Positions 2,070 through 50,474 of a DNA stretch of 64,000 nt are shown here, piece by piece (within the stretch, counting starts at the first letter, position 1; every line of letters begins with the position of its first letter). The stretch is taken from contig NZ_AP022577.1 of assembly GCF_010730955.1 (NCBI RefSeq), positions 248,001 through 312,000 on the forward strand, read 5' to 3'. The translations under genes and the position numbers were made by a program. The DNA comes from Mycolicibacterium aubagnense (lineage in GTDB: Bacteria; Actinomycetota; Actinomycetes; Mycobacteriales; Mycobacteriaceae). Below the pieces are notes generated by a model. The model ran no database searches and had not been told where the DNA came from. It saw nothing but the letters and a program-made list of their open reading frames with translations.

Positions 2070-3334
2070 AGGAATGTTTGCCCTTCGCCTCGGTAGGTGG
2101 CGGCCGCACCGACGGTGTGTCCGTCCCGGACCAACAAGAATCGGTCGACGTGCTCGCTGAGCTCACCGGCCTTGCAGTGCCGGAACCACACGCGGTCACC
2201 GATGGCCAGTGCGGCAGCGGCCCTTCCGGTGACCGGGGTCTGTACCTCGCCGGCCATCTCCGCGGCCAGCAGACTCAGCCCCGGAGGCCAGACCGGTTGC
2301 GGCACCCGGTCTTTGGCCGGCGGTCCGGAGGCGATCCAGCCGCCGCCGAGTACCGTCGCGATCTGCGGTGCGGGCTTGCGCACGACCGACAGCGCGAACG
2401 CCGCGGCCGGTGCGGGTGAGAAGCCACGGTAGGTGTCGAACAGGTGGGGACCGAAAAGGCCACTGCCCGCGGCGACTTCGGTGACCGCGGGATCGGAGGC
2501 GGTGTACTCGATGGATCCGGTCCCGCCGCCGTTGACGAACTCGAGGTCCGCCACCTGCCGTACCGCGGCCACCGCGCGACCGCGGCGTTCGAGCAGTTCG
2601 TCCTTGGACCGTCGTTGCATCCATCGGATCAGTCGGGACCGTGCGGCCTGGCCCCGCACATCGTCACCGACACCGGCAATCTGAGCTTCGTAGGACATGA
2701 GGCCCACCAGCGAGAAGCCCGGGCGGCCGGCGATGGCCACAGCCAGGGCGCGGGCCTGTGCGGCGGTGTGGACGGGGGAGCGGCGTACGCCGAGATGGCC
2801 GAGTGCCGGTGCCTGCCACGACGCGTCGAGATCGAGACACACCCGGAGCGCGGGCCGCGTCGACGGCGCGGCGACGGCGTCCAGCAGATCCAGCTGCGCC
2901 ACGTCGTCCACCATGAGGGTCACCCGGGCCGCCAACTCCGGCGACGACGCCAACCGGGCTATCGCGGTGCGGTCGGCTGTCGGGTAACCGACCACGATGT
3001 CGTCGTGCGGGGGATGCGCCGCATCGCCCTCGGCCAGCCACAGCGCTTCGGGCAACGTGAAGGCCAATACGCCGGCATAGCCGTCGACGGCGGTGACGGC
3101 GTCCAGAATCGCCCGCGACCGAACCGATTTGGACGCCACCCGGATCGGTGTTCCAGCAGCGCGGCGGCGCAGGTCGTGCACGTTGTGGCGCAGCGCGCCG
3201 AGGTCGATCGCGGCCAGTGGCGTTTCGAGATGCGAGGTCGCGTCGGTCAATGCCGGCCAATATGTGGCCGGACGCGCCCACGACCCCTCGACGGAAGGCG
3301 GATCCGACAGATCGACCGGCATTGACGACACCAT
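2066..3334 (-). CDS. alanine racemase N-domain / D-threonine aldolase-like PLP protein
   Basis: Fold-type III PLP enzyme related to amino-acid deaminases, D-threonine aldolases and alanine racemases. An N-terminal barrel carries the Schiff-base lysine in RVASKSVRS (Lys69 from the chosen start). A C-terminal D-Ser-dehydratase-like beta domain includes a final HCKAGEL segment typical of the metal/PLP aldolase group. The frame is open back to 3409, but homology starts late. ATG 3334 or 3322 or GTG 3331 are all possible, and none has a good Shine-Dalgarno. It is the first gene of the leftward operon with the lactone oxidase and amidase, and is divergent from the AraC gene, which may regulate it. 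The exact reaction is not known. Confidence 0.75.
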   Translation of the reverse strand: MVSSMPVDLSDPPSVEGSWARPATYWPALTDATSHLETPLAAIDLGALRHNVHDLRRRAAGTPIRVASKSVRSRAILDAVTAVDGYAGVLAFTLPEALWLAEGDAAHPPHDDIVVGYPTADRTAIARLASSPELAARVTLMVDDVAQLDLLDAVAAPSTRPALRVCLDLDASWQAPALGHLGVRRSPVHTAAQARALAVAIAGRPGFSLVGLMSYEAQIAGVGDDVRGQAARSRLIRWMQRRSKDELLERRGRAVAAVRQVADLEFVNGGGTGSIEYTASDPAVTEVAAGSGLFGPHLFDTYRGFSPAPAAAFALSVVRKPAPQIATVLGGGWIASGPPAKDRVPQPVWPPGLSLLAAEMAGEVQTPVTGRAAAALAIGDRVWFRHCKAGELSEHVDRFLLVRDGHTVGAAATYRGEGQTFL

Positions 3335-3423
3335 GGATCGGGAGCTAACCGCATGTCGCTGGGTGCGCACGAGGGCATCGGTGACCACAATGGGGGGAAA
3401 ACCGGACACATGTAGGAGGTGGG

Positions 3424-4428
3424 GTGGACAAGGAAAACGCGGCGTTCATCCCGACGTCGGTGCTCGTCAACGTCGTCGACGTGGCCGATCGCGCGGGTCT
3501 GCCGACCGAGCGGTGGCTGGCCGCCGCGGGCCTGTCGGCCGCGACGCTCAACTCGCCCGACGCGCGGGTCTCGTTCCGGCAGGCGGCGCTCGTCCTGCGG
3601 CGTGCGGTGCGCGCCATGCCGGACCGCGGACTGGGGATCGATGTCGGGGCCCGTGACATGTTCGTGTCGTTCGGCGTGCTCGGACTGGCCATTCGCTCCG
3701 CGGAAAACCTGGGCATGGCAATGCAGGTCGGCCTCGAACTGCATCAGAGCGCCGGCAGCCTGATGGACGTCGGCGCCGAGCTCATCGGCGACACCTTTGC
3801 GCTGCGGGCCTACGAGCGGCACCCGGAACCGGAGCTGCTGCCCTTCCTGTGTGAGGAGCTGTTCTGCAGCGTGCTGGTCACCGTCAGGACCGTGCTCGAG
3901 CTGCCCCAGCAGACGCCCGAGTACGTACAGGTCAGCTATCCCGCACCGGTCTACGCGCACCGGTATCGCGAGTTCTTCGGCTGCCCGGTCCTGTTCAACG
4001 CCGACGCCAACCGGCTGGCGTTCCCCGATCCGCTGTGGTCGCAGCGGCTACCGCGCGCCGATCCGGCCACGCACGCGGTCGCGGTCGCCGCCTGCCGCGA
4101 CATGTTGACCCAGGGGGAGCCGCCGACCGACGTGGTGCAGACCGTCGAGACGATGTTGCGCGACAGCGTGCGAGACCCGCTGACCATGGCCCAGATCGCC
4201 AAACGGCTGGGTATGACGGAGCGCACGCTGCGTCGGCGTCTCGGTGCCGATGGTCAGCAATTCAGCGCGCTCCGCGACAAGGTCCGCAGCGAACGGGCAC
4301 GGTATCTGGTCCGTGAGACGGCGATGCCGGTGCACGCCATCGCCACCGAGGTCGGGTTCACCGACCCGCGGGAATTCCGCCGGGCGTACGTCAAATGGAC
4401 CGGTCATCCGCCTACGCACGATCGATAG
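3424..4428 (+). CDS. AraC family transcriptional regulator
   Basis: A 334-residue regulator starting with GTG at 3424, 4 nt after a strong AGGAGGT (3414-3420). Residues 1-200 resemble the arabinose-binding-like effector domain found in mycobacterial AraC/OruR-type regulators. The C-terminal 90 residues hold the double helix-turn-helix, recognisable from MAQIAKRLGMTERTLRRRL and the second helix region VHAIATEVGFTDPREFRRAY. It diverges from the aldolase-oxidase-amidase operon across a gap of about 90 bp, the usual arrangement for a local activator. The gene's stop abuts that of the convergent FAD monooxygenase. Confidence 0.9.
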   Translation: MDKENAAFIPTSVLVNVVDVADRAGLPTERWLAAAGLSAATLNSPDARVSFRQAALVLRRAVRAMPDRGLGIDVGARDMFVSFGVLGLAIRSAENLGMAMQVGLELHQSAGSLMDVGAELIGDTFALRAYERHPEPELLPFLCEELFCSVLVTVRTVLELPQQTPEYVQVSYPAPVYAHRYREFFGCPVLFNADANRLAFPDPLWSQRLPRADPATHAVAVAACRDMLTQGEPPTDVVQTVETMLRDSVRDPLTMAQIAKRLGMTERTLRRRLGADGQQFSALRDKVRSERARYLVRETAMPVHAIATEVGFTDPREFRRAYVKWTGHPPTHDR

Positions 4429-44438: not shown

Positions 44439-44464
<26 letters not shown>

Positions 44465-44924
44465 GTTCGTCTGCCGGACCAGGGTTTTGGGAACTCTCGG
44501 CCGGATCGGCCGTGGCGACGAAACCGAAGTCCTGGTAGACCCCGAGCGCCGCCGCATTGTCGCGGTGCACCCGCAGGGTCACGGTGTGCGCTCCCAGCTC
44601 ACGTCCCCAGTCGATCGCCGCGGTCAGCAGGGTGCGCGCCACCCCGCGACCACGCGCGGTCGGATCGGTCCACAGCGAGTACAGGTACACCGACCGGGGG
44701 CTGGCCCGATGCGCGGCGATCAGGCCCACGAGGCGGTCGTCCTGGGCGAGGGCGAACTGGGCGTGGGCCCGCAGCCGCCGGCGCCATTGCGTCCCGGTGA
44801 AGCTCATCTCGGTGCGGTATTCGGCGTCGTCGGTCCCCGCGGAATCGGCCAGCGCGCGCAGCCGTAGCGCGGCGAACATCCGCCAGTCGGCCTCGGTGAG
44901 CCGGATCACCCCTGTCGGTGTCAC
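44439..44924 (-). CDS. GNAT family N-acetyltransferase
   Basis: A 161-residue GNAT with an acetyl-CoA loop in LWTDPTARGRGVARTLLTAAIDWGRE (R-G-R-G-V-A) and a following VTLRVHRDNAAALGVYQDFGF. It begins VIRLTEADWRMFAALRLRAL. It overlaps the 3' end of the Rv1417-like gene by 26 bp tail to tail. The C-terminal tail after the motif-B phenylalanine is Ser/Pro-rich and may be poorly conserved. Substrate unknown. Confidence 0.85.
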
Positions 44925-45004: not shown

Positions 45005-45010
45005 TAGAAT
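45005..45010 (+). promoter_or_regulatory. -10 element (TAGAAT) of the murL operon
   Basis: TAGAAT is 9 nt before the GTG at 45020, so the message would be leaderless or have 1-3 leader bases. It lies in the only non-coding gap (44925-45019) before the operon and supports independent expression. Confidence 0.5.
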
Positions 45011-45019
45011 TTGCTGATA

Positions 45020-45763
45020 GTGACCGATTTTCGCATGCCTTCGCCGCCGCTCGACGTCGCGGCGATCGCACCCGCCGAACTGGTCGGCCGCCTTGGCTCG
45101 TACCCGACGGTGACCGTGCCGATCTACCAGGGCCGGACCGTCGACATGGCCTGGCTGTGGCATCACCTCGCCGAACCCGCGGACTACTTCGGGCTGACCA
45201 TGCCGTCCGAGGCTGACCTCGGCGCTGCGGTGGCGCGCTTCTCGGGGCAGTTGGTGGCCGCGACCATCACGATCGTGGACGGCGGCCGGTGCGCGGTGAC
45301 AGGCACGCCTTCCCAGGTCTACGCACCCGATCCGGTACGCATCGGCCGGCGCGACAGCGAATGGACCGCACCGGCGGCGAGGGACGAGCGGTGGCTGCGG
45401 ATGGCGGCCCGGACGACCAGCCTGGCCACCGTTGACCACCTGCTGCGCCGGCTGGCTGAACAGGGTTGCGCGGACGGCATCGCACCCGGTCCGGACGTCA
45501 CCCCGCCCGTCGCCGGCGCTCTGGTGCTCGACGTCGGTGCCGAGCGGGTCGGTGTCGAGAATCCGGAGCCCGTCTCGATCCTCGAGCAGTTGCACACCTG
45601 CGGTGTCGTGCGATCCGTCGCATCTCGCGCAGCGGTGCCCGTCGACGCGGTGCGTCACGCCTGGTGGATCTCGCCGCGGTACCGCACCCATCCCGTCGCA
45701 CAACTCGGCGACCGCACTGTCCCCGTTGATTCGTCCTACCCGCCGTTCCTGGAGCAGCTGTGA
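45020..45763 (+). CDS. class IV aminotransferase-like protein, apparent pseudoenzyme, coupled to murL
   Basis: 247 residues, not a named family that I can be sure of. By eye it follows the fold-type IV (PabC/DAAT/IlvE) layout. There is GSYPTVTVPIYQGRTVDMAWLWHHL (26-50) in place of the GxFETxRV...HLxRL region, ARTTS...LLRRLAEQGCADGIA (130-155) where the PLP lysine helix should be, and a CGVVRSV turn. The tail HAWWISPRYRTHPVAQLGD resembles the FLTNS...PV strand. The residue expected to be the Schiff-base Lys is Arg131, and the expected PLP-N1 Glu in V-T-E is Pro162. It is probably not a PLP aminotransferase. GTGA overlap with murL. It may be a partner or regulator of MurL. Confidence 0.6.
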   Translation: MTDFRMPSPPLDVAAIAPAELVGRLGSYPTVTVPIYQGRTVDMAWLWHHLAEPADYFGLTMPSEADLGAAVARFSGQLVAATITIVDGGRCAVTGTPSQVYAPDPVRIGRRDSEWTAPAARDERWLRMAARTTSLATVDHLLRRLAEQGCADGIAPGPDVTPPVAGALVLDVGAERVGVENPEPVSILEQLHTCGVVRSVASRAAVPVDAVRHAWWISPRYRTHPVAQLGDRTVPVDSSYPPFLEQL

Positions 45764-47091
45764 CCAAACCTTTTGTCCCACAGTCCTACAAGTCGTTTCG
45801 TATCGACGGCTTCGACATCGAGGGCGGCGTGTTCCACGGGCGCTACACCATGTGCGGGGCCGATTCCGCCGACGACGTCAGCTTCGCCGAGACCGTCGAT
45901 TTCGGGGACAGCCTGGCCGGTGGCCGGCCCGACGACCGGTTGCTGCGGCTGCTGACGCTGACCTGCGCACTGAGCTACTACAAGGCGGCCGCGCCGCCGC
46001 AGATCGAAATCGCTTTCCCGACTTATGATTTCGAACGGGAGTATCTGCGCCAGGTGCTGGCGGGCGGCTTGGGTGAATACGCCTACCGCAACAACCTGCC
46101 CGGCGCGCTGAGCCCGGAGATCACCGGTGATCGCGCCCAGATCGGTGCGCAGCAGCCCGACACCTGGAATCCCGACGCGGCCCCGTTGGTGCCGGTCGGC
46201 GGCGGCAAGGACTCGGTGGTGACGATCGAGGCGCTCACCCCGCTGCAGCCGGTGCTGTTCAACGTCAACAAGTTCGACCCGATCGACCGGTGCATCGAGA
46301 TCAGCGGGCTGCCGCACGTGCGCGTGATGCGGTCCATCGACCGCACCCTCATCGACGTCAACGCCGCCGGCGCCTACAACGGCCACATCCCGGTCACCGC
46401 GATCAACAGCATCATCGGCTTGATCGTGGCGGACGCCAACGGCCTGGGACCCGTGGTGCTGTCCAACGAGCGTTCGTCCAACGTCGGCAATGTCGAATGG
46501 ATGGGCCAGGACATCAACCACCAATGGTCCAAGAGCGTCACCTACGAGACGCTGTTGCGGGACACCCTCGCCTCGTATGGGCTGAACCCGGACCGGTACT
46601 TCTCGCTGCTGCGCGGCCTGTCGGAGTCGCAGATCGCCGATCGGTTCGCCGCCAGTCCCCAGTATTTCCGCGCCTTCATCAGCTGTAACCGGCCGTTCGC
46701 CCTGGATGCCGGCCGGCGCGGTGCCACCTGGTGCGGCCACTGCCCGAAGTGTCAATTCGTGTTCGTCCTGATGGCGCCGCGCCTGGGCAGAGCCGAGGTG
46801 GAGGCGATCTTCGGGCGAAACCTGTTCGAGGACACAGACAGTCGCGCCGAATTCGCGGACATCCTCGGTGTCGGTGCGCACAAGCCGTTCGAATGCGTCG
46901 GCGAGTACTACGAGGCCGCCGAGTCGATGCTGACCATTCTCGACGACGAGGCCTGGACCGGACTGCCGCTGGTGGAGGAATTCCGCAGTGTGCGAGCCGA
47001 TCTGGAGCGCGTCGCCGCCGACCACGACGACAGCTCCGCCGTGCAATACGTGCCCGAGCGCTATCGCGCCGCCCTGGCGGGTCGTCCATGA
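45760..47091 (+). CDS. murL: UDP-MurNAc-L-Ala-L-Glu epimerase, MurL type
   Basis: A 443-residue protein matching the MurL family, which in Xanthomonas epimerises the terminal L-Glu of UDP-MurNAc-L-Ala-L-Glu to D-Glu with ATP. A PP-loop nucleotide motif GGGKDS is at 147-152. It is followed by FNVNKFDPIDRC, an ERSSN segment, and a C-x2-C-x2-C cluster (Cys325, 328, 331 in WCGHCPKC) that may bind zinc. No signal or TM. It is coupled by 4-bp overlaps to the gene before and to a Mur ligase after. That is the known MurD2 partner arrangement and the main reason for the assignment. Confidence 0.82.
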   Translation: MTKPFVPQSYKSFRIDGFDIEGGVFHGRYTMCGADSADDVSFAETVDFGDSLAGGRPDDRLLRLLTLTCALSYYKAAAPPQIEIAFPTYDFEREYLRQVLAGGLGEYAYRNNLPGALSPEITGDRAQIGAQQPDTWNPDAAPLVPVGGGKDSVVTIEALTPLQPVLFNVNKFDPIDRCIEISGLPHVRVMRSIDRTLIDVNAAGAYNGHIPVTAINSIIGLIVADANGLGPVVLSNERSSNVGNVEWMGQDINHQWSKSVTYETLLRDTLASYGLNPDRYFSLLRGLSESQIADRFAASPQYFRAFISCNRPFALDAGRRGATWCGHCPKCQFVFVLMAPRLGRAEVEAIFGRNLFEDTDSRAEFADILGVGAHKPFECVGEYYEAAESMLTILDDEAWTGLPLVEEFRSVRADLERVAADHDDSSAVQYVPERYRAALAGRP

Positions 47092-48437
47092 CGTCCCAGC
47101 GCCCAGACCTCGACGGTGCCGCCGTCGGTATCTGGGGTTTCGGCAAGGAGGGCCAGTCGCTGGCCCGTACCGCGGCCGCCGCGGGGGCCGCGCGCATCGA
47201 TGCCGTCGATGATGCGGGGCGGGGGACCCTGGATGCGCCCGGCGATATCGCGAATCTGAATTTGTGGCGCGGTACCGAGCACCTTGCCCGCCTCGCGGAC
47301 TGCGACGTGGTGTTCCTCAGCCCCGGGATACCTTGGCATCAGCCGTTTTTCGCCCAACTGCGCGACGCCGGCAGCACGTTGTCCAGCGCGGCCGACTGGT
47401 ACCTGCGCCGGTACGCTGCCCAGACTGTCGGCGTCACCGGGACCAAGGGCAAGAGCACGACAGCGTCGTTCCTGACGCACCTGCTGTGCCGGCTCGGCGC
47501 GGATGCCGTGGTCGCGGGAAACATCGGCACCCCGCTGTCGGATCTGGAGCCCGGAGCGGACGCCGTCGTGGTCGCCGAGCTGTCCAGCCAGCAGTGCGCT
47601 CTGGTGACCGCGTCGCCGCGAATCTCGGTGATCACCAATCTCTTCGAGGACCACCTGGATTGGCACGGCGACATCGGCGCCTACCACAGTGCGAAGGCCA
47701 ACGTCTTCGCCTGCGGCGGTGAGATTCTGGTCACCACACCGCAGGTGCTCGGCGTCCTGCATCGCCTCGGCATCGCGCTGCCGCCGGTGGTGCGCACCGT
47801 CGATGCAGACGAGGCCGCCCGCACCCAGGCTGAGCTCGGGGCGGGCGATTATGTGATGGCCTATGAGCACAACGTCGTCAACGGCGCCCTGGCTGCTGTC
47901 GCTGCCGCCGAGGTGATCGGCCGGCCGGTGGCCGAGGACGAATTCATCGGTGCGGTAACGACATTCGAAGCATTGCCGCACCGGCTCCAGGTTGTGCGGC
48001 GCACCGGGGGAGTGCGCTGGATCGACGACACCCTGGCCACCACGGGCGAGAGCGTGGTCGCCGCATTGCGCTCGATGCGCCCCGACGACCGGGTGGCCGT
48101 CATCGTCGGCGGCATGGACCGTCAGCTCGACTACGAACAGATCGACGACTACCTGCTCTCGGGCGCGCGTGACGTTCACCTCATCCAGGGCCCGACCAAC
48201 GGGACCTCGATCGGGCGCCGCTTCGCCGCCGCACACCCGGAGTCCGTGCACCCGGTGGACAGCCTGGAGGCGGCGGTACGGGCAGCGGCCGCGGTACCAG
48301 GTGTGACGGCCGTGCTGCTGTCGCCGGGCGCGGCCAGCTATGACCTGTTCGCCAACTACGTGGCAAAGGCCGCGGCGTTCTGCGAGTTCATCGACGCCCA
48401 CCTCGGGGCGTCGGATGCTGTCAGCCAGTCGAACTAA
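47088..48437 (+). CDS. murD2: Mur ligase, MurD2 type (adds L-Glu to UDP-MurNAc-L-Ala)
   Basis: A 449-residue Mur ligase with three domains: an N-terminal Rossmann domain (GIWGFGKEGQSLAR), an ATP-binding middle domain with P-loop GVTGTKGKST at 115-124 and the DHLDWHG metal segment near 200, and a C-terminal domain (PHRLQVVRRTGGVRWIDDTLATT, with VGGMDRQLDY). It is MurD-like, but the adjacent murL makes MurD2 the best call. MurD2 uses L-Glu instead of D-Glu; this cannot be read directly from residues. ATGA overlap with murL. The stop TAA is part of the uvrC -10. Confidence 0.82.
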   Translation: MTSQRPDLDGAAVGIWGFGKEGQSLARTAAAAGAARIDAVDDAGRGTLDAPGDIANLNLWRGTEHLARLADCDVVFLSPGIPWHQPFFAQLRDAGSTLSSAADWYLRRYAAQTVGVTGTKGKSTTASFLTHLLCRLGADAVVAGNIGTPLSDLEPGADAVVVAELSSQQCALVTASPRISVITNLFEDHLDWHGDIGAYHSAKANVFACGGEILVTTPQVLGVLHRLGIALPPVVRTVDADEAARTQAELGAGDYVMAYEHNVVNGALAAVAAAEVIGRPVAEDEFIGAVTTFEALPHRLQVVRRTGGVRWIDDTLATTGESVVAALRSMRPDDRVAVIVGGMDRQLDYEQIDDYLLSGARDVHLIQGPTNGTSIGRRFAAAHPESVHPVDSLEAAVRAAAAVPGVTAVLLSPGAASYDLFANYVAKAAAFCEFIDAHLGASDAVSQSN

Positions 48438-48446: not shown

Positions 48447-50474
48447 GTGCCTGATCCATCGACGTACCGGCCCGCGCCGGGAACCATCCCGTTGGAACCG
48501 GGGGTATACCGGTTCCGGGATCCGCATGGCCGGGTCATCTACGTCGGCAAGGCCAAGAGCCTGCGCAGCCGGCTGAACTCGTACTTCGCCGACCTGTCTG
48601 CGCTCGCGCCCCGCACCCGCCAGATGGTGACCACGGCCGGCAGTGTCGAGTGGACGGTCGTCACGACCGAAGTCGAAGCGCTGCAACTGGAATACAACTG
48701 GATCAAGGAGTTCGATCCGCGGTTCAACATCCGGTACCGCGACGACAAGTCGTACCCGGTCCTGGCCGTCACCCTCAATGAGGAGTACCCGCGGCTGTTC
48801 GTGTACCGCGGGCCGCGTCGCAAGGGCGTCCGGTACTTCGGCCCGTACTCGCACGCCTGGGCCATCCGCGAGACGCTCGATCTGCTCATCCGGGTCTTTC
48901 CGGCGCGCACCTGCTCGAACGGAGTGTTCAAGCGGCACAACCAGATCGGCCGACCCTGCCTGCTGGGCTACATCGACAAGTGCTCGGCCCCCTGCGTCGG
49001 CCGGGTGACCGCCGCCGAGCACCGCAAGATCGTCGACGACTTCTGCGACTTCCTGGCCGGCAAGACGGACCGGCTGGCCCGGGACATGGAACAGCAGATG
49101 GCCGAGGCCGCCGAGGAATTGGAGTTCGAGCGGGCGGCGCGGCTGCGGGACAACATTTCGGCGCTCAAGCGAGCGCTGGAGAAACAGGCGGTCGTGCTCG
49201 GCGACGGTACCGATGCCGACGTGGTGGCCTTCGCCGACGACGACCTCGAGGCCGCCGTCCAGGTGTTCCACGTCCGCGGCGGCCGGGTCCGCGGCCAGCG
49301 CGGCTGGGTCATCGAGAAATCCGGCGAGCCGGGTGAGTCGGGTGAGGACTACCTGGTGAGTCAGTTCCTCACGCAGTTCTATGGTGATCAGGCCGAGCTG
49401 CGCGGCACGGCACCGACCGACGAGATCACCAACCCGGTGCCCAAAGAGGTTCTGGTTCCGGCACTTCCGGACAACGCGGATGAACTCGCCGACTGGTTGT
49501 CCGGTCTGCGTGGTTCCCGGGTGCAGCTGCGGGTGGCACAGCGCGGCGACAAGCGTGCCCTGGCCGACACTGTGCAACGCAACGCGCAGGATGCACTGGC
49601 GCAGCACAAGCTCAAGCGGGCCGGCGACTTCAACGCCAGATCGGAAGCACTGCAAAGCATTCAGGATTCGCTGGAGCTGGATGACGCGCCGCTGCGCATC
49701 GAGTGCGTCGACATCAGCCACGTGCAGGGCACCGACGTGGTGGCCTCGCTGGTGGTGTTCGAGGACGGACTGCCCCGCAAATCCGACTACCGGCACTACG
49801 CCATTCGCGAGGCCGCGGGCGACGGCCGGTCCGACGACGTCGCGTCCATTGCCGAGGTGACCCGCCGGCGCTTCGCGCGCCACGTGGCCGACACCCAGGT
49901 CCGCGCGGACATCGACGGTGCCGACACCGGCGAAACCCCGGCGCGGCCAAAGCGATTCGCCTACCCGCCCAACCTGTTCGTGGTCGATGGCGGCGGGCCC
50001 CAGGTGAATGCGGCGGCTACTGTGCTCGACGAATTGGGTGTCACGGATGTGGCCGTCATCGGCTTGGCTAAACGTCTGGAAGAGGTGTGGGTTCCCGAAC
50101 AGCCGGACCCGCTGATCATGCCGCGCAACAGCGAAGGCCTGTATTTGCTACAGCGGGTGCGTGACGAAGCCCACCGGTTCGCCATCACCTATCACCGCAG
50201 CAAGCGGTCCAAGCGGATGACGGCGTCGGTGCTCGACGCGATCCCGGGCCTCGGTGAGCACCGGCGCAAAGCGTTGGTGACCCACTTCGGTTCGGTGGCG
50301 CGGCTGAAAGAGGCCGGCGTCGACGAACTGACCGCGGTCCCCGGCATCGGTGCGGCCACGGCCCAGGCGGTGGTCGACGCCCTGCGGTCGGCTCACCCCG
50401 TCGGCACCGCTGATTCCCAGCCGGATTCGGCGGCGGCGCCGACCGATATCGACAATGATCGGACACCAGAGTGA
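48447..50474 (+). CDS. uvrC: excinuclease ABC subunit C
   Basis: A 675-residue UvrC for dual incision in nucleotide excision repair. Domains in order: GIY-YIG nuclease ([21 protein letters not shown], 18-38), a Cys-containing region ([15 protein letters not shown]), the UVR UvrB-binding coiled coil (about 200-240, [13 protein letters not shown]), the RNase H-like endonuclease ([11 protein letters not shown]...VVFEDG, and VVDGGGPQV), and a C-terminal helix-hairpin-helix pair ([18 protein letters not shown]). The extra C-terminal tail is polar. GTG start, probably leaderless. Confidence 0.96.

Follow-up and report, generated by a model that had tools for sequence, protein, structure and literature searches.

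The window analysed here, a 64,000-nucleotide stretch of the Mycolicibacterium aubagnense genome (contig NZ_AP022577.1, positions 248,001 to 312,000), carries a three-gene cassette, orf1-murL-murD2. Very probably, the ancestor of one mycobacterial clade gained murL-murD2 and this clade then lost both murI and the canonical murD, so that the D-glutamate (D-Glu) step of peptidoglycan precursor synthesis now depends on MurD2 and MurL. The evidence consists of gene content, gene losses, synteny, phylogeny, predicted folds and active-site residues, from which all enzyme activities in the mycobacteria are inferred. In the proposed pathway, MurC would make UDP-N-acetylmuramoyl-L-Ala (UDP-MurNAc-L-Ala) as usual, MurD2 would add L-Glu instead of D-Glu to it, and MurL would epimerise the added L-Glu, as it does in Xanthomonas, possibly through an adenylate, the mechanism hypothesised by the discoverers of the Xanthomonas MurL. 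The steps from MurE onward would be unchanged.

The three genes lie on the + strand, orf1 at 45020-45763, murL at 45760-47091 and murD2 at 47088-48437, with start/stop overlaps GTGA at 45760 (orf1/murL) and ATGA at 47088 (murL/murD2). A first-pass annotation, made from the letters of the window, had described murL and a second Mur ligase gene as an adjacent, coupled pair forming an operon between the riboflavin genes and uvrC. Profile searches with both proteins bore out the pair and its position, but the operon is headed by a third gene, orf1, which had been missed. The enzyme names and the MurD2/MurL route proposed at that stage also appear well founded, as far as sequence comparison goes.

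The murL product (443 amino acids) matches the NCBIfam model of MurL, NF041275, over residues 18-417 (E 1.1e-92, 310.9 bits) and retains all 40 columns that are invariant across 35 MurL proteins from outside the mycobacterial branch. The PP-loop GGGKDS at residues 147-152 (codons 46198-46215, + strand), already seen in the first reading, is invariant at residues 148-152 and conserved in at least 90% of 49 sequences at residue 147, and the MurL profile matches the PP-loop protein TtuA at this motif (E 1.1e-4). Cysteines C309, C325, C328 and C331, the last three forming the previously reported C-x2-C-x2-C cluster (codons 46732-46752, + strand), are all invariant in the alignments. As modelled here, MurL is likely a QueC/QatC-like PP-loop enzyme, and because the predicted fold is QueC-like, the four cysteines likely form a metal or Fe-S site. 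A Pfam search assigned no family to the window MurL, and phmmer searches of MurL and of orf1 against the PDB sequences gave nothing useful. Precomputed records of MurL homologues (120 listed) carry PF26298/PF26299, and some of their source names say epimerase.

The murD2 product (449 amino acids) scores 263.4 bits against the murD model TIGR01087 (cut-off 211.95) and has a MurD-type P-loop, GVTGTKGKST as first noted, together with the MurD-type His and Lys; with its gene adjoining murL, this points to a MurD2-type ligase. Because the MurL-linked MurD2 of Phytohabitans (287.1 bits) and Rhodanobacter (330.5 bits), the two tried, exceed the same cut-off, TIGR01087 cannot separate MurD from MurD2. 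On the tree, the window ligase groups with the MurL-linked MurD2 and apart from the seven canonical MurD, on a separate branch with a support of 100 in the Shimodaira-Hasegawa-like approximate likelihood ratio test (SH-aLRT). It neither groups with the MurD of the mycobacterial dcw cluster nor has the two lysines of canonical MurD: at the positions of K319 and K348 of Escherichia coli MurD it carries L316 and R345, and at that of D182 it carries D188. Leu and Arg occupy the first two positions in all 38 mycobacterial MurD2 rows, and Lys occupies both in all seven canonical MurD. Judged from these residues, the mycobacterial MurD2 is of a mixed type, with only part of the L-Glu signature of Xanthomonas.

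The genome to which the window belongs (6.32 Mb in two contigs, completeness 100) was searched for murI and for murD in the dcw cluster, a check suggested in the first-pass annotation, and neither was found. The MurI model TIGR00067 gave no match; two genes of the PF01177 racemase family are present, neither of which matches TIGR00067, and their neighbours look to us, by eye, like hydantoin/allantoin genes. No canonical MurD was found, the best murD match being the 47088-48437 gene itself, and the dcw cluster reads murE, murF, mraY, a 221-amino-acid open reading frame (ORF), ftsW, murG and murC. All five congeners tried have a full murD (416-444 bits). The 221-amino-acid ORF (L013:6947-7612, G000:C1:5384946-5385611) lies between mraY and ftsW, the expected place of murD, and has no NCBIfam match. 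We take it to be lipoprotein-like by its look, and the names of the dcw genes other than the Mur ligases are likewise our assumption.

The same double absence extends across the carriers of murL. A scan of 396 genomes of the genus gave MurL matches in 48, and 46 of these were kept as carriers; the two set aside, G270 (E 1.3e-4) and G471 (E 7.9e-4), are weak and both genomes have a full MurI and a canonical MurD. A family-wide draw gave MurL in 2 of 201 genomes. The first reading had placed the pair "in a mycobacterium", which holds, but is too narrow for what is a property of one clade. TIGR00067 matched in 350 of the 396 genomes, in 343 over the cut-off; these 343 are all among the 350 non-carriers, no carrier exceeds the cut-off (0/46), and 41 of the 46 show no MurI match at all. 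The named carriers, M. aurum, neoaurum, llatzerense, yunnanensis, arenosum, hodleri, canariasense, frederiksbergense, lacusdiani, sediminis and bacteremicum, follow this pattern (0/11 over the cut-off; M. sediminis has the single match below it). Nor was there a MurI match in another seven genomes with MurL, namely five of Micromonosporaceae, one Rhodanobacter and one metagenome-assembled genome (MAG) labelled Mycobacterium. Five genomes have neither a MurL nor a MurI match: G203, G445, G460 and G488, which are 55-80% complete, and G551, a cut carrier in which murD2 runs off the end of a 4,219-base contig. Canonical MurD was found in G203 (in part) and G460, and none was shown in G445 and G488.

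When whole genomes were searched with a congener's canonical MurD as query, none of the 46 carriers had this enzyme: in 40 the sole match was the low-scoring gene next to murL, and six gave nothing at E 1e-15. It was present in all 18 chosen controls, one of which is the query's own genome and two of which have it as two pieces. The dcw gap was read in the window genome, and the lack of MurD in the other carriers rests on the whole-genome search. The canonical murD in two pieces belongs to the non-carriers G208 (C1:2401368-2402809) and G219 (C1:2066009-2067499). An artefact of assembly or of incomplete genomes is ruled out by single-contig carriers and by the state of the murI locus described below, and the same double absence in 46 carriers makes an assembly loss of both genes untenable.

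In all 16 non-carriers compared, the murI locus has the order rhomboid, murI, Rv1339-like gene, rphA. From this locus murI is missing in 23 of 23 carriers, 22 of which have 100-197 bases between the matched parts. One carrier, G381 (L207, reverse complement 2897-4351), has a transposase-like gene in the murI scar. By eye we take this gene to be of the IS1380 type, and the rhomboid and Rv1339 names are likewise given by look.

The carriers form one clade on both trees, that of the cassette-flanking genes and that of the murI-locus genes. All trees, those of MurL and MurD2 included, were quick IQ-TREE runs with SH-aLRT support only, and these two were made with hand-picked non-carrier loci (35 of 350 for the cassette-flank tree, mostly those with the most similar UvrC, and 16 for the murI-locus tree) and with L056 and L060 left out of the former for having too few flanking genes. 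Repeated gains within the genus were considered and rejected for the genomes sampled, since a single carrier clade is found on two gene sets and the sole "non-carrier" inside it, G551, is the cut carrier. The mycobacterial MurL proteins also form one branch, which together with the MurL of G057, a genome of another genus of the same family, makes up a branch beside the Micromonosporaceae; the MurL tree did not identify the donor of murL-murD2. In G057, murL-murD2 and a GNAT-like gene lie between the rhomboid and Rv1339-like genes, the exact slot of murI (L012:7643-11913, G057:C34), and neither MurI nor canonical MurD was found. On the MurL and MurD2 trees, the G057 proteins branch as the closest outgroup of their mycobacterial counterparts. 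The position of this pair in the place of murI implies at least two exchanges in the family, or a move of the pair between loci.

At the insertion site, the cassette follows the GNAT gene in 33 loci, with uvrC directly next in 29, about 2 kb between in three and a contig end in one. In the non-carriers L159 and L171 a gene on the - strand lies between GNAT and uvrC, and the carrier L050 has the cassette plus that gene, which we name gamma-glutamyltransferase-like by eye. In L051 and L098 the gap matches that of L050 in size, 29 of the 33 cassette loci have no room for the gene, and neither do the non-carriers L160 and L175. Since the gene is present in L159 and L171 and occurs together with the cassette in L050, the cassette was probably inserted beside it, and most carriers then probably lost the gene.

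The orf1 product (247 amino acids) is firmly predicted to have a class-IV aminotransferase fold, matches the profile of CpuTA1 (5k3w) with E 2.2e-7 and has conserved residues of its own, such as W125, D152 and P219. The lysine that forms the Schiff base with pyridoxal phosphate (PLP) is absent in all 46 homologues, being Arg in 44 and Asp in 2, and Pfam assigned only PF01063, in 7 of the 46 (best E 0.0023). We infer that orf1 is a pseudoenzyme and a non-catalytic accessory protein of the MurL-MurD2 pair. Tentatively, a three-component pathway may be envisaged in which MurL and a relaxed MurD2 are joined by the lysine-less orf1, the switch having freed the folate enzyme Rv0812 from a side duty in D-glutamate supply; orf1 might, for example, bind L- or D-Glu or the UDP-MurNAc-dipeptide and so gate the pair. 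If true, a pseudoenzyme would have been recruited to the making of peptidoglycan precursors, in a genus assumed as a matter of course to use MurI and MurD. It is also possible, though doubtful, that orf1 catalyses some other reaction, or that mycobacterial MurL or MurD2 cannot work without it as a subunit; the system would then consist of three proteins, in contrast to the two of Xanthomonas. Its first place in the operon in 33 of 33 cassette-bearing loci and its firm fold with conserved residues would fit such a role; however, orf1 has diverged far more quickly than MurL (in distant carriers, identity to the window protein is 28-44% for orf1 and 64-71% for MurL), and the G057 pair has no adjoining orf1.

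Several observations weigh against the replacement of MurI and MurD by MurL and MurD2. The MurL score is below the 700-bit cut-off of NF041275, a model of Xanthomonadales proteins, and Foldseek alone, with the MurL model against the PDB, gave nothing below E 0.005. A sub-cut-off MurI-like match is present in five of the 46 carriers, and the MurI-like racemase of M. sediminis (G516, L229:3907-4728), which lies away from the murI locus, reaches 104.8 bits against a cut-off of 146.65; we take its flanking genes to be an RpiR-like regulator, named by eye, and an aminotransferase. In the canonical MurD search, only 22 of the 25-47 first-look candidates were scored per carrier. The window genome retains a gene for an Rv0812-like aminodeoxychorismate lyase. 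All 38 mycobacterial MurD2 have Asp at the D182 position, which is the canonical state, the other MurL-linked MurD2 having Glu in 31 and Asp in 7 of 38. In the available part of PMC8788868, the E197D change alone altered the stereospecificity of the Xanthomonas MurD2, and E. coli MurD carrying D182E/K348R failed to accept L-Glu. With the canonical Asp at D182, the L-Glu selectivity of the mycobacterial MurD2 may be looser, and the residues are no proof of it. The overexpressed M. smegmatis lyase can replace MurI, according to the part of PMC11309781 available.

The first of these points loses force on comparison, since all six other MurL proteins tried are also under 700 bits (336-664), so that this cut-off is not decisive for membership outside the Xanthomonadales. 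The six comprise three from Micromonosporaceae (384-416 bits), that of M. neoaurum and two gammaproteobacterial ones, which were scored as partial sequences (the matched stretch) and might pass at full length. As to the ligase, the same available text of PMC8788868 reports that the double change of Glu197 and the Arg switched the Xanthomonas MurD2 to D-Glu, that each single change altered its specificity, and that K319T let E. coli MurD take L-Glu to some degree.

The lyase and the MurD2 residues bear on the alternative under which MurD2 is a diverged, D-Glu-adding MurD, D-Glu is supplied by the Rv0812-like lyase/D-amino acid transaminase or by some other side activity, and MurL has a different function. 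The name Rv0812 is our assignment from the lyase model, the neighbour gene and papers. The Rv0812/MSMEG_5795 lyase has a D-amino acid transaminase side activity, as the consulted portion of PMC11309781 states, and the Chlamydia DapF is a precedent for a racemase by side activity (PMC5885031, available part). The Asp at D182, as in canonical MurD, and the presence of the lyase gene would both agree with this alternative. Against the lyase model NF005887, non-carriers score 503-518 bits (4/4) and carriers 241-349 (7/7), with 281 for the window genome and 275 for G057 (carriers and G057: L239:1414-2220, with counterparts in L235, L236, L238, L240, L244, L246 and L241). Pairwise identities of the lyase are 47-81% (mean 57) among the seven carriers and 74-85% (mean 77) among the four non-carriers; the concatenated cassette-flanking proteins, in nine of these genomes, are 87-93% identical in carriers and 90-95% in non-carriers. 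This is a small hand-picked sample, the sequences behind NF005887 may have come from non-carriers, and a single clade counts as a single event. The divergence could also mean a changed function, but being fast and different from carrier to carrier it looks like relaxed constraint and not like a new essential job, and it suggests that the change of pathway may have relieved the lyase of a duty in D-Glu supply. All four non-carriers tested keep MurI although they too possess this lyase, and the M. tuberculosis lyase did not appear redundant with murI in the part of PMC11309781 at hand. The conserved MurL residues and the fixed gene order would moreover go unexplained, and the Leu/Arg at K319/K348 would not be expected, which makes this alternative improbable. 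That the pair is an extra route, or one for a different wall polymer, beside a working MurI-MurD, as the first-pass annotation had proposed, is favoured only by the presence of the pair and can be set aside: MurI and canonical MurD are both missing from the same complete genome and from the 46 carriers (MurI: over the cut-off), nothing else able to do the MurD step was found in the window genome, and their joint absence means replacement and not a second route.

The closest known system is the MurD2-MurL pair of Xanthomonas oryzae (XOO_1320/XOO_1319; PMC8788868, as far as available), a homologous pair in an organism where MurI is absent and the D-Glu step replaced. The mycobacterial proteins share with it the conserved MurL residues and the Arg at the MurD2 R358 position, whereas they have Asp for Glu197, Ala for Pro433 and Tyr for Phe435, the extra gene orf1, and a clade nested among mycobacteria that use MurI and MurD, in which the losses are visible. 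Micromonosporaceae are also actinobacterial, and MurD2-MurL activity has been shown for Micromonospora and Salinispora (PMC8788868, part seen). Their MurL genomes L072, L074, L076, L080 and L085 have no MurI match, and their MurL is 41-45% identical to that of the window; eleven MurD2 read have Glu at D182, murD2 is divergent from murL in 9 of 16 loci, and those loci have no orf1 match. The QueC/QatC enzymes share only 11-14% sequence identity with MurL, use another substrate and give weak Foldseek E-values. The class-IV aminotransferases, such as CpuTA1, the D-amino acid aminotransferase 1daa and 6q1q of M. tuberculosis, have the fold of orf1, unlike which they possess the Schiff-base lysine.

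The gene order in the window is ribAB, ribH, a PH-domain gene, a divergent GNAT gene, orf1, murL, murD2, uvrC, rapZ, cofD and whiA. The left flank, the GNAT acetyltransferase gene (44439-44924, - strand), is matched in many non-carrier loci too, and the right flank is uvrC (48447-50474, + strand). A -10-like hexamer, TAGAAT (45005-45010, + strand), is located nine bases 5' of the orf1 GTG start. It is in register with this GTG in 22 of the 24 carrier loci printed, the exceptions being L070, where the motif is shifted, and L056, printed at a different start; shown separately, six loci from the group of aurum, neoaurum and canariasense have TAGGAT or TAGTAT 5' of an ATG. This conservation in register indicates that the cassette probably has its own promoter, and TAGAAT may give a near-leaderless transcript. 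The locus survey covered the best 80 of 266 loci. Of the 34 with a Mycobacterium or Mycolicibacterium label, 33 have orf1-murL-murD2 at the GNAT/uvrC site, which rules out a chance origin of the gene grouping. The 34th, L084, left out of the counts of mycobacterial loci, comes from a MAG labelled Mycobacterium sp. RYN_182; its MurL is 40% identical, lies elsewhere and falls outside the mycobacterial branch. A mislabelled bin and a further acquisition are both candidates for its origin.

A literature search limited to openly readable papers found nothing on MurL in mycobacteria, and some databases already label mycobacterial MurL proteins as epimerase by automatic annotation. The pathway itself is known, including in Micromonosporaceae; what is new is the swap in a mycobacterial clade, together with orf1 and a MurD2 of mixed type. 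Standard annotation hides it, as MurD2 scores over the MurD cut-off and MurL is often labelled hypothetical. MurI and MurD are regarded as targets that are both conserved and essential, and most sampled members of the clade show no MurI match and no canonical MurD. In the available part of PMC5038272 MurI is called a bona fide target in M. tuberculosis, and M. aurum is discussed as a surrogate of M. tuberculosis for drug discovery in that of PMC5508667. The M. aurum genome has no MurI match, and a screen for MurI inhibitors in this species would therefore miss its target. With its clean scars, and with close relatives that still use the former pathway, the clade is a natural experiment on the exchange of an essential step.

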